From: Clostridiales bacterium DTU073
Lineage (GTDB): Bacteria; Bacillota; Peptococcia; DRI-13; DTU073
Assembly (NCBI GenBank): GCA_001512665.1
Contig: LFSF01000028.1
Span: 31,114-66,737 of the forward strand
Length of the DNA stretch: 35,624 nucleotides
Direction: 5' to 3'
Positions 30,609 through 35,624 of this stretch are shown piece after piece; within the stretch, counting starts at the first letter, position 1, and each line of letters begins with the position of its first letter. Both the position numbers and the translations under genes were made by a program. Under the pieces are notes generated by a model that ran no database searches, was not told where the DNA came from, and saw only the letters and a program-made list of their open reading frames with translations.

Positions 30609-31781
30609 ATGGAACTAAACTTAACAGAGGCCTTCTATGATCTGGCGATGAGCACAGGTTTTGTTAATCTAACGATTCAACAAGTGATTATGCTCTTCAT
30701 CTCCTTTATTTTACTTTATTTGGCTATAGTGAAAAAGTTTGAACCGTTGCTACTTTTGCCGATTGCTTTTGGTATGTTACTTACCAATATACCAAATGCC
30801 GGTTTAATGTCAGCACCGCAACCGGGAATGGATCCTTTAACGGGTGAAGAATCAATAGCTCCCGGTGGTTTACTATATTATTTATATCAAGGAGTAAAAT
30901 TAGGGATATATCCGCCTCTTATTTTTATGGGCGTAGGGGCGATGACAGATTTTGGTCCGCTTATTGCTAATCCGAAGACTTTACTTTTAGGAGCAGCAGC
31001 TCAATTTGGAATTTTTCTTACTTTTATTGGTGCTTTATTATTGGGTTTTTCTCCCCAAGAAGCCGGCTCTATAGGAATTATCGGTGGTGCTGATGGGCCA
31101 ACGGCTATCTTTCTTACTTCTAAGTTAGCACCGCACTTATTGCCGGCAATTGCTATTGCGGCGTATTCATATATGGCTTTAGTACCGATTATTCAACCAC
31201 CGATTATGAGAGCGCTAACAACTCGTAAAATGAGGGTCGTTGTTATGGATCAGCTTCGTACTGTATCGCAAAGGGAAAAAATTATTTTCCCGATTGCCGT
31301 GACGGTAGTTGTTTCCTTACTGCTCCCTGATGCCACACCTTTGATTGGGATGCTGATGTTAGGGAACCTTTTCCGAGAATCCGGTGTTGTTGGGCGTTTG
31401 AGCGATACAGCACAGAACGCCTTAATGAATATTATTACGATTTTCTTAGGTGTTACGGTCGGAGCCACAGCTAATGCGGCCGCCTTTTTAAGTCCGGCTA
31501 CTCTAAAAATTATTGCTTTAGGTTTGATCGCTTTCTGTTTCGGGACTGCCAGTGGTGTTCTTTTGGGAAATTTGATGTATATACTCTCTGGGGGTAAGAT
31601 TAATCCTTTGATTGGTTCTGCCGGAGTTTCCGCAGTTCCGATGGCGGCACGGGTTTCTCAAGTAGTAGGGCAAAAAGAAAATCCCAACAACTTCTTGTTG
31701 ATGCATGCGATGGGACCTAATGTAGCCGGGGTAATTGGCTCAGCAGTAGCGGCCGGTATCTTGCTATCTTTGTTTGGTTAA
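30609..31781 (+). CDS. mmdB: Methylmalonyl-CoA decarboxylase beta subunit, Na+ pump
   Basis: This 390-residue integral membrane protein of about 9-10 hydrophobic segments decarboxylates carboxybiotin and exports Na+. The key motif [10 protein letters not shown] (159-168) carries the membrane-embedded Asp162 equivalent to Asp203 of oxaloacetate decarboxylase OadB, and the late helix [19 protein letters not shown] holds the conserved Asn, Gly and Ser. It completes the four-subunit complex. ATG 30609 follows GAGGGGAAGG. A strong terminator follows after 23 bases. Confidence 0.95.
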
Positions 31782-31850: not shown

Positions 31851-31920
31851 GTAAACAACCATGTATTACCTCGTGTTTTATTTCTAAAAAGTTTAAAACT
31901 AAGTTCAGGAGGTGATTTTT

Positions 31921-32085
31921 GTGCCCCATAAAACTCAATTGGAAAGTCATTTGGAGAGAGTAAAATACGAAATAGCACAAGAATTTGGGTTAACACAGAG
32001 GGAAAATCGAGAAAAGCAAAACAAGGGTAAAGGTCAGCATAAAAAATTTAACATTAATAGAAGAAAAAAATTAATGATTAAGTAA
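31921..32085 (+). CDS. Short SASP-like spore protein
   Basis: This is a 54-residue protein starting at GTG 31921 behind a strong AGGAGGTGA site. Residues 7-24 (LESHLERVKYEIAQEFGL) match the first conserved segment of alpha/beta-type small acid-soluble spore proteins, including the KYEIAxE cleavage region for germination protease, and resemble LDQLKYEIAGELGI of the neighbour at 32213. The rest is a basic tail (about 25-54, rich in Lys, Arg, Gln and Asn) and lacks the second SASP segment, GYVGGxMTRKLV. The stop codon lies in a 20-base tandem duplication; before the duplication the frame would have run about 8 codons longer. It is either a divergent SASP or a decayed one. Confidence 0.7.
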   Translation: MPHKTQLESHLERVKYEIAQEFGLTQRENREKQNKGKGQHKKFNINRRKKLMIK

Positions 32086-32103
32086 AAAAATTAATGATTA
32101 AGT
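32064..32103 (+). repeat. Perfect 20-base tandem duplication at the SASP-like gene's end
   Basis: The A7-TTAATGATTAAGT unit is present at 32064-32083 and again at 32084-32103 without any mismatch. The junction creates the TAA stop (32083-32085) of the SASP-like gene. Confidence 0.95.
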
Positions 32104-32123
32104 TGAAATTTAATGGGAAAATG

Positions 32124-32148
32124 TTCTAACTAAATTAGTTTTTTAGAA
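32124..32148 (+). terminator. Weak A/T-rich hairpin, possible terminator
   Basis: TTCTAA (32124-32129) can pair with TTAGAA (32143-32148), or alternatively AACTA with TAGTT (32128-32132 with 32136-32140) followed by four T. Both stems are A/T-rich, so termination would be weak. Confidence 0.35.
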
Positions 32149-32212
32149 TGTATAAAAAATTCATCAACAGCGAAAAATAAGAATACTTCAAGCAAAGGAG
32201 GTGAAGTTTAAA

Positions 32213-32428
32213 ATGCCTCGTAATACTAATAAGCCAGCAGTTCAGGGTGCAGCTCAAGCTCTTGATCAGTTAAAATATGAAATCGCTGGTGAACTAGGAA
32301 TCTCCAACTATGCTCAGATTGATAAAGGTTCATTGACTTCTCGTCAGAATGGATATGTTGGAGGATATATGACCAGAAAGCTTGTACAATTTGCAGAGGA
32401 AGCTTTATCCAAAGGGCAAATGGTGTAA
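32213..32428 (+). CDS. Alpha/beta-type small acid-soluble spore protein
   Basis: This 71-residue DNA-binding protein coats spore DNA and protects it from UV and heat. Both conserved segments are present: ALDQLKYEIAGELGIS (about 17-32), containing the germination-protease site around Glu-Ile-Ala, and SRQNGYVGGYMTRKLVQFAE (about 46-65). The frame begins at GTG 32201, but ATG 32213 is chosen because AAAGGAGGTG lies 9-10 bases before it and the family begins near this point. I could not pick out a convincing sigma-G promoter. It shares a terminator with the convergent gpr gene. Confidence 0.95.
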   Translation: MPRNTNKPAVQGAAQALDQLKYEIAGELGISNYAQIDKGSLTSRQNGYVGGYMTRKLVQFAEEALSKGQMV

Positions 32429-32509: not shown

Positions 32510-33496
32510 TTAATGCAGGTAATGTTCCACTTCTTCAGGTGGTATTCCGGGATGTAAGGAGAGGGCTAAAGACATGGCGATAATTTTTGCTGTATTCTCT
32601 ATTTGTTCATCGATTTCTTTAGGAGTAACCATTAGTTGCCCGCCAAAAGGTTCTAAAACTTGATTAATCATTTGACCGACTGCAACCGGTTGTAAACCTT
32701 GATATACAGCACGTAAGTTTGGTGTAGATTGCAAATGACTAAATAGTTTTTCCATGGCTTGATGGGCGATAATTGCAGCATTAACTACCGTGGGAACGCC
32801 AATGGCAATTACAGGTATACCCATGGTTTCCTGGTTTATTGCGGCTCTTTTATTCCCAATGCCGGAGCCGGGATTGATACCGGTAGTGGCTACTTGGATA
32901 GTAGAATTAATTCTTTCCACATTGCCTGCTGCTAAAGAATCAATAACAATAAGCAAATCCGGTTTTACACGGTCAACAATGCCTTTGATTATTTCCGCTG
33001 TTTCTATTCCTGTGATCCCGAGCACACCGGGAGCAATAACACTGACAGACCGTAATCCGTGGCGTAATTCTTCAGGGGCGTAATGGAATAAATGTCTTGT
33101 CGCCATAGAATATTCGACAGTCTTGGGTCCTAAGGCATCGGGGGTTGCATTCCAATTACCTAAGCCCACGATTAAAATTGAAGAATCATCTTGTAAAGGT
33201 AGTATTTCTTTTAATTTTTGTGCAAAGATTTGACCGATATTTTTATGTACCATTTTATTATTTTCCCGTAAAGCTTTTGATTCTAAGGTAAGATAACTGC
33301 CAGGAGCACGTCCCATTATAGCAGCTCCTTGTTCATCGAGAATGGTAATTGTTTTGATTATACCTTGTTCAAATGGTTCTTCGTCCATTCTTACTCCTGG
33401 AATTTCCCGTCCTGTATCACCTCTTAATAAATCGTGAGCCTCTACGGCTAAGTCTAAGGTAATGCCCATTAATTGATAGAGTTCACTTTTTTTCAT
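32510..33496 (-). CDS. gpr: Germination protease GPR
   Basis: GPR degrades alpha/beta SASPs during spore germination. The 328-residue protein begins MKKSELYQLMGITLDLAVEAHDLL, matching the propeptide and its processing region. It carries YLTLESKALREN, VGLGNWNATPDALGPKTVE, APGVLGITGIETAEIIKG, LIVIDSLAAGNVERINSTIQ and GINPGSGIGNKR, the conserved core of peptidase family A25. The frame extends 6 codons upstream, but ATG 33496 gives the standard start, with GAGGTG about 10 bases ahead. It sits tail to tail with a gene for its own substrate class. Regulation by forespore sigma factors is expected from the family, but I could not identify the boxes confidently. Confidence 0.95.
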   Translation of the reverse strand: MKKSELYQLMGITLDLAVEAHDLLRGDTGREIPGVRMDEEPFEQGIIKTITILDEQGAAIMGRAPGSYLTLESKALRENNKMVHKNIGQIFAQKLKEILPLQDDSSILIVGLGNWNATPDALGPKTVEYSMATRHLFHYAPEELRHGLRSVSVIAPGVLGITGIETAEIIKGIVDRVKPDLLIVIDSLAAGNVERINSTIQVATTGINPGSGIGNKRAAINQETMGIPVIAIGVPTVVNAAIIAHQAMEKLFSHLQSTPNLRAVYQGLQPVAVGQMINQVLEPFGGQLMVTPKEIDEQIENTAKIIAMSLALSLHPGIPPEEVEHYLH

Positions 33497-33578
33497 TGTT
33501 TTTATACACCTCATTTTTATTTTAAATAAAGTTTTCCCTAGTAATAAGATGTTATGCTTACTTACTGTCTTTTATATA

Positions 33579-35040: not shown

Positions 35041-35624
35041 GTGACAAATAATAGTTCAGGGGTTGGTAATTATTTTGTAAAAAAAGGCGAAATAACGGAA
35101 AAACAATTAGCAGAAGCTTTAAATAAACATGAAAAAACGGGTAAAAGAATGGAAGAAATATTAATGGAAGAAGGTTATGTATCTGAAGATAAAATTAAAG
35201 ATTATCTCAGAAATAGATATAATATTGTCTCTGTGAATTTGTCTGAACAAGACATTCAAGCTGATGTTCCTCTCTTAATAAGTGAGGATATTGCGAGAGA
35301 CTATATTTTAATTCCTTTTAAAAAGAGTCAGTATCGGTTATTGGTAGCTATGGTGGATCCTTATGATTTAGATGCTATTGAAGAAGTTGAAAAGGCTACA
35401 GGCTTAACTGTACTGCCGAGAAAGGCAAAAGCCAGAGAAATTATGCAAAAGATTGAATTGCATTTTTCGGGAAAACAACCAAAAAATATCTTTAAAGCTG
35501 CTGAAATACTTGAAAAAAATCTAGATAAAGCTAAAAAACTGGAAGAAGAAGCTAAGTTGAGGGCGGAAGAAGAAGCCAGGTTGAAAGCAGAGGAAGAAGC
35601 CAGATTAAGAGCCGAAGAGGAAGC
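35041..35624 (+). CDS. MshEN-domain protein with Glu/Ala-rich repeat helix (3' end outside window)
   Basis: The gene runs off the right edge; 194 complete codons are visible with no stop. The start is GTG 35041, with GGTGAGG just upstream. Residues about 8-145 match the MshEN/GspE N-terminal domain of type IV pilus and type II secretion ATPases: VGNYFVKKGEITEKQLAEAL, MEEILMEEGYVSEDKIKDYL, ISEDIARDYILIPFKK, LLVAMVDPYDLDAIEEVEKATG. In place of the linker to an ATPase core, a charged helix begins near residue 150 and becomes a regular 8-residue repeat (EEEARLRA type) from residue 168. Some MshEN domains bind cyclic di-GMP. Whether a PilB/GspE ATPase domain follows cannot be seen. Confidence 0.85.
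   Translation, partial: MTNNSSGVGNYFVKKGEITEKQLAEALNKHEKTGKRMEEILMEEGYVSEDKIKDYLRNRYNIVSVNLSEQDIQADVPLLISEDIARDYILIPFKKSQYRLLVAMVDPYDLDAIEEVEKATGLTVLPRKAKAREIMQKIELHFSGKQPKNIFKAAEILEKNLDKAKKLEEEAKLRAEEEARLKAEEEARLRAEEE
35542..35624 (+). repeat. 24-base coding tandem repeat (8-residue E/A-rich unit)
   Basis: Three full in-frame units (35542-35565, 35566-35589, 35590-35613) and the start of a fourth encode EEEAKLRA, EEEARLKA, EEEARLRA and EEEA. Third codon positions differ between units (GCT/GCC, TTG/TTA, GAA/GAG), so protein repetition is older than very recent slippage. The array continues past the window edge. Confidence 0.9.

Follow-up and report, generated by a model that had tools for sequence, protein, structure and literature searches.

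A half-length SASP gene convergent with gpr in Clostridiales bacterium DTU073 and its relatives, probably encoding a distinct small spore protein

The timing of spore DNA protection and of its release is set by SASPs and the germination protease GPR. Helix 1 is where GPR cuts SASPs, and SASPs bound to DNA are shielded from it. In the window studied here (the whole stretch of DNA analysed, 35,624 nucleotides from Clostridiales bacterium DTU073), a gene beside gpr encodes a protein that resembles the first half of an alpha/beta-type SASP and then runs into a basic tail, and its stop codon lies within a perfect tandem duplication. A first-pass annotation proposed that a fresh duplication had truncated the gene, and left two possibilities standing, a decaying gene or a spore DNA protein of a distinct class. 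The question raised by this locus is which of these it is and, if it is a protein in its own right, what it does next to the gene for GPR. We suggest that the gene is not decaying and that its product is probably a small spore protein of its own kind, tied to GPR.

The half-SASP gene and its neighbours

The features of the locus are as follows.

30609-31781, + strand: mmdB, decarboxylase membrane subunit, the upstream neighbour (name from the first-pass annotation; it fits the flanking operon)
31907-31915, + strand: AGGAGGTGA, the Shine-Dalgarno sequence ahead of the half-SASP gene (direct reading; 8-base match scored)
31921-32085, + strand: half-SASP gene (ORF reading, Pfam match, homologues in relatives)
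31951-31992, + strand: conserved head LERVKYEIAQEFGL, residues 11-24, the equivalent of helix 1 of alpha/beta SASPs; E-I-A-Q-E within it is the putative GPR site
31993-32082, + strand: basic tail, 30 residues, computed net charge +10
32064-32083, + strand: tandem repeat copy 1, 20 bases
32084-32103, + strand: tandem repeat copy 2, 20 bases, an exact repeat
32150-32179, + strand: sigma-G-like promoter ahead of the full-length SASP gene (GTATA and AAAAATA spaced by 18 bases; fits 10 of 11 informative positions, at a shuffle fraction of 0.07)
32213-32428, + strand: alpha/beta SASP of full length, 71 residues (Pfam match over positions 1-59 of 59, 87 bits)
32510-33514, - strand: gpr, SASP-specific germination protease, convergent with both SASP genes (TIGR01441, E 5.5e-116)

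The half-SASP reading frame opens with GTG at 31921 and closes with TAA at 32083-32085, giving 54 residues, and a strong ribosome site lies ahead of the GTG. Residues 6-34 of the product align to positions 7-34 of the 59 in the Pfam SASP model (PF00269) with 22.3 bits, barely above the cut-off of 22, and since the match ends at model position 34 the second SASP half is absent from the protein; no NCBIfam model matches it, even at E 10. The product of the full-length gene next door matches SspC (PDB 2z3x, E 6.9e-07). The host genome (1.67 Mb in 52 contigs) holds five SASP matches at E <=0.01, the half gene included. The first-pass annotation had described just such a protein, with its first half kept, a Lys/Arg-rich tail, a strong ribosome site and a place between mmdB and gpr, and on each of these points it was accurate.

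The tail of the window copy is the most basic among 31 relatives, and it is probably disordered. An AF2 model of the half protein is a single helix over residues 5-53 (mean pLDDT 69.3) in which block means above 70 (86 and 76) are limited to residues 11-30; as an alignment of four sequences lies behind it, we give this model no weight. A PDB profile search with a 31-row alignment returned a sole match at E 0.81, which we take as chance.

Scored against the sigma-G consensus tabulated in PMC3416734 (GNATA, CAWAMTA), the best promoter candidate of the half gene in the window does no better than chance (score 8, shuffle fraction 0.89), a weakness that would fit decay. The same scoring yields sigma-G-like promoters with a shuffle fraction <=0.05 for 13 of 33 halves as against 11 of 29 full-length SASPs. 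Conserved short elements also lie between the two SASP genes, at 32118-32130 and 32182-32189 in the window and again at loci L010, L012, L020, L096, L103, L105, L107, L108, L112 and L164. They are AAAAGGTTCTAAC-like in the window's own family and AAATACTTCTAG elsewhere, upstream of a promoter-like box, while AATACTTC is present in 13 of 25 gaps; possibly they are an activator site for the SASP promoter.

The tandem duplication and the half-length family

The two repeat copies are exact and the TAA straddles their junction, so that, as the first-pass annotation had it, the duplication makes the stop codon. A perfect 20-base tandem repeat is no chance event, yet it is a common type of slippage product. 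(A separate tandem array, of a 24-base unit in 3.5 copies, occupies 35541-35624 and reaches the window end.) Read in the other frame, through one repeat copy, the sequence gives KKLMIK-LKFNGKMF-stop, and a single copy would therefore add eight codons to the half-SASP frame, in agreement with the figure given earlier. Relatives do not support this eight-codon extension: the tails at L010 and L012 read the corresponding stretch in a frame other than that of the window (ATG GGA AAA and ATG GTA AAA against AAT GGG AAA, compared by eye).

The further claim, that the duplication truncated a longer SASP, is contradicted. Only the last residues are altered by it, and no two relatives within the window's own family agree in these; the duplication trims just an unconserved C-terminus. 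The gaps that follow 31 halves hold no remnant of a second SASP half, and the sole gap that was flagged, at L013, proved to be the adjoining full-length SASP. As a cause of the half length the duplication is ruled out; by the evidence of the homologues, half length is ancestral, the normal state of the family, and common to many families of genomes.

These homologues were gathered in steps of increasing breadth. A protein search of 60 relatives gave matches in 21 genomes, DTU073 itself counted, and ORF reading at these matches identified short half genes in 16, the rest being full-length SASPs, one more distant half gene, or unrelated. A profile from a 16-row alignment, run on 46 genomes, matched 14 at E <=5.1e-13, with the next best at 1.9e-5, which is the score range of full-length SASPs, leaving a clean gap to the half-gene class. 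This profile and a second one, the 31-row alignment, extended the half gene to further families when run on 398 genomes of the phylum. With the second profile and a cut-off of 1e-6, 39 of the 398 genomes matched and 30 were counted as half genes; of the other nine, five read as full-length SASPs (G087, G111, G170, G222, G375) and four were taken as full-length from open frames alone (G191, G247, G368, G407). The half gene is thus present in about 30 of the 398 genomes and absent from most of the phylum sample. One of the 30, in G075, is a near-vestigial ORF with a tail of six residues, which again would fit decay.

The half-length homologues form ORFs headed by ribosome sites. In 31 relatives they span 37-62 residues (median 43) with tails of 11-38 residues; one of them, L112, was retained with its start uncertain, as it has no clearly placed standard start codon. 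They share the motif KYExAQE[FLMI]G followed by a variable basic tail, with E17, Q20, E21 and G23 invariant in the 31 sequences and K15 at >=90%, and each carries a single copy of the putative GPR cleavage site. The residue after the A/S/T of the site is Q in 31 of 31 halves, as against seven of 48 distinct full-length SASPs (N 18, G 12, S 7, Q 7, A 4), and hence the halves are no chance breakage products of the SASPs beside them. In the window copy the motif residues and the ribosome site are all intact. Taken together, reading frames and genome comparison show a genuine protein-coding family, its members about 37-62 residues long and convergent beside gpr in every genome checked.

Several further matches were noted. 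At L018 (positions 1302-1481, genome G046) a more distant half-SASP of 59 residues with KFEMEVAEELG stands ahead of two full-length SASPs; it falls below the cut-offs of the profile searches used, and since it was missed by them the family is probably wider. G445 has two half-SASP matches about 8 kb apart (C3:34382 and C3:42352), the sole such genome among the 45 of family f15. Of 28 loci matched in a search that included Bacillus, 25 were Bacillaceae records, presumably full-length SASPs with AQE by coincidence; the other three were the relatives G014, G003 and G004.

Selection could be assessed in family f15, where the half gene is matched in 41 of 45 genomes (26 of the 27 of high quality) and 29 of 30 loci examined are ORFs by the script's rule, L116 being the exception. 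Over 25 loci (24 distinct sequences) of one f15 genus, pN/pS is 0.02 for the head with the motif (pS 0.517, pN 0.010), 0.07 for the tail (pS 0.614, pN 0.043) and 0.255 for the N-terminus, and the tail is almost fixed as ANRKHK-x-FPN. The selection test on the tail that had been proposed earlier therefore comes out as purifying, and these ratios point to strong purifying selection on the half gene, tail included, in f15, the one family tested. In the window's own family tails are too divergent for such a test, varying in both length and sequence as a decaying gene might, and between families the tail sequence is unconserved.

The gene can also be lost. Among the seven genomes that belong to the same family as the window, two, G002 (L083) and G005 (L091), both of 1.3 Mb, lack it, with the order mmdB, full SASP, gpr otherwise unchanged. 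This clean loss, which favours decay, shows that the half gene is dispensable in small genomes; G006, of the same genus as G005, retains it. Relatives without the gene had been named beforehand as a refuting result, which was borne out only in part: these two do lack it, and other relatives keep the half-length form. Of the two alternatives first offered it is the distinct class that has gained ground, from half-length orthologues beside gpr in many families and from selection in f15.

Possible roles beside gpr

On its other side the half gene has a conserved neighbour, gpr. Whole-genome searches of 36 half-gene genomes, picked by profile score and not by gpr, found exactly one gpr in each, and in 36 of 36 the half gene and gpr run convergently, 86-1775 bp apart. 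An earlier count within fetched flanks had placed it convergently at 28 of 29 loci, and the sole locus without it, G079, is the 1775 bp case. For comparison, 37 of 67 full-length SASPs lie near gpr among the matches listed, the 67 being the high-scoring ones, without the lower-scoring SspF-like matches. A full-length SASP adjoins the half gene in 27 of the 36 genomes; in the other nine (G048, G166, G196, G379, G417, G221, G245, G292, G399) no full-length SASP is at the locus, which leaves gpr opposite the half gene only. For mmdB, a conserved association was considered and rejected, since it is within the fetched flank in just four of 31 half-gene loci and is not conserved at this position outside the window's own family.

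The likeliest reading, put forward tentatively, is that the half-SASP represents a distinct, unnamed class, made in the forespore, cut by GPR and having a role in GPR function. It would be a vertically inherited minor spore protein, with the first alpha/beta SASP helix and the GPR motif followed by a short basic tail, presumably made under sigma-G. With its second helix missing, it would not clamp DNA as a full SASP does, and because helix 1 and the site are kept while the half with the DNA-binding glycine is gone, it should be a free GPR substrate. As such it might occupy or prime GPR so that DNA-bound SASPs are spared from too early an attack or, alternatively, it might have SASPs cleared in the right order on germination. 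That it is specifically a soluble, DNA-independent substrate or competitor of GPR, encoded tail-to-tail with gpr and timing the attack of the protease on DNA-bound SASPs, is more doubtful. We infer its function in spores and with GPR from sequence comparison, and it may be that the two genes stay together as a legacy of an ancestral array of SASP genes rather than for a functional reason.

A close rival, and a possible one, is that the half-SASP is a DNA-binding minor SASP whose helix 1 and basic tail, replacing helix 2, help full-length SASPs to coat spore DNA, perhaps by filling the spaces between these or by sitting at their ends, GPR degrading it likewise. The head is homologous to the SASP domain, and as helix 1 of full SASPs also contacts DNA, its conservation could reflect either recognition by GPR or contact with DNA. 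Adjoining full SASPs in 27 of 36 genomes and tails that are net-positive in 31 of 31 relatives (median pI 9.7) also suit this role. The summed tail charge is 150 against 125.5 (sd 12.8) in shuffles of the tails' own bases and, being nearly equalled by these shuffles, is weak evidence of selection. Against DNA coating, the second-half region with the conserved glycine (G52 of SspC, where, according to the accessible text of PMC11392383, a change impairs DNA binding) is absent from the window ORF and from the 31 gaps, the tail is not conserved between families, and nine of 36 loci hold the half gene and gpr alone. We prefer a role with GPR because the gpr linkage is fixed, even where full SASPs have moved away.

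Less likely than either are the two remaining explanations. An amino-acid reserve or filler protein, abundant, not bound to DNA and digested by GPR like the Bacillus gamma-type SASPs, to which excerpts of PMC8999374 assign a reserve role, would account for a low-complexity, K/N-rich tail and a retained GPR-like site in clostridia, from which the gamma-type SspE is reported absent (PMC3533761, in the sections available), but is improbable for a small protein that is single-copy in nearly all genomes, has one site and in f15 has a strongly conserved tail, which would be unexpected for a reserve. Least probable is a gene in decay, once a full-length SASP and now eroding without its second half, latest by the tandem duplication, given a half length common to many families, gaps without remnants, selection in f15 and an intact motif and ribosome site in the window.

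If the half-SASP is indeed a partner of GPR, it would add a layer of control over the protease. A conserved protein beside gpr that has the protease site but not the DNA-binding half is a natural tool to part GPR cutting from DNA binding. Such a test looks practicable because some hosts appear culturable: reductive dehalogenase matches (25 in G221, 18 in G245, 43 in G292, seven in G417, two in G379, none in G399, G048 or G166) point to Dehalobacter for the first three genomes and to Desulfitobacterium for G417 and G379. Heliobacteria were rejected as the identity of family f103, with no match above the BchL cut-off in 10 genomes.

Comparison with known SASP types

In the literature within reach, which included the accessible parts of PMC8745062, PMC3533761, PMC8999374, PMC11392383 and PMC3416734, we found neither a half-length SASP beside gpr nor a description of a control layer over GPR by such a protein, and the available text of the survey of clostridial SASPs (PMC3533761) does not mention a half-length class. 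The gpr-linked half-SASP would thus be a variant class of SASP that is apparently new; being so small, it can be missed by annotation or filed as a SASP fragment.

With SspF/Ssp4-type SASPs it shares a minor, short character and a partial PF00269 match. Matches at positions 13-51 or 13-59, which we take to be of that type, differ from it in running on past the first half of the model; among the matches listed, not one is beside gpr. SspE, of the gamma type, is low-complexity, probably unfolded outside its site and cut by GPR, as the half-SASP may be too; gamma-type SASPs have repeated sequence and more than one GPR site, whereas the half-SASP has no repeats, a single site and homology to helix 1 of alpha/beta SASPs, and it occurs where the gamma type is reported absent.

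The closest relatives are the alpha/beta SASPs (PF00269; SspA-D; SspC, 2z3x), a type that binds in the minor groove of DNA and alters its UV photochemistry. The half-SASP resembles them in its first-helix KYE-x-A-x-E, its ribosome site, its place near gpr, and its small size and basic character. Judged by alignment, it departs from them in three testable features, namely the full domain, of which positions 7-34 of 59 alone are matched, the second half, and the length, which at 54 residues in the window lies below the 60-75 given for this type in the accessible text of PMC8999374. In their stead it offers 37-62 residues with a basic tail, a site in which Q invariably follows the A, and one conserved copy by gpr.
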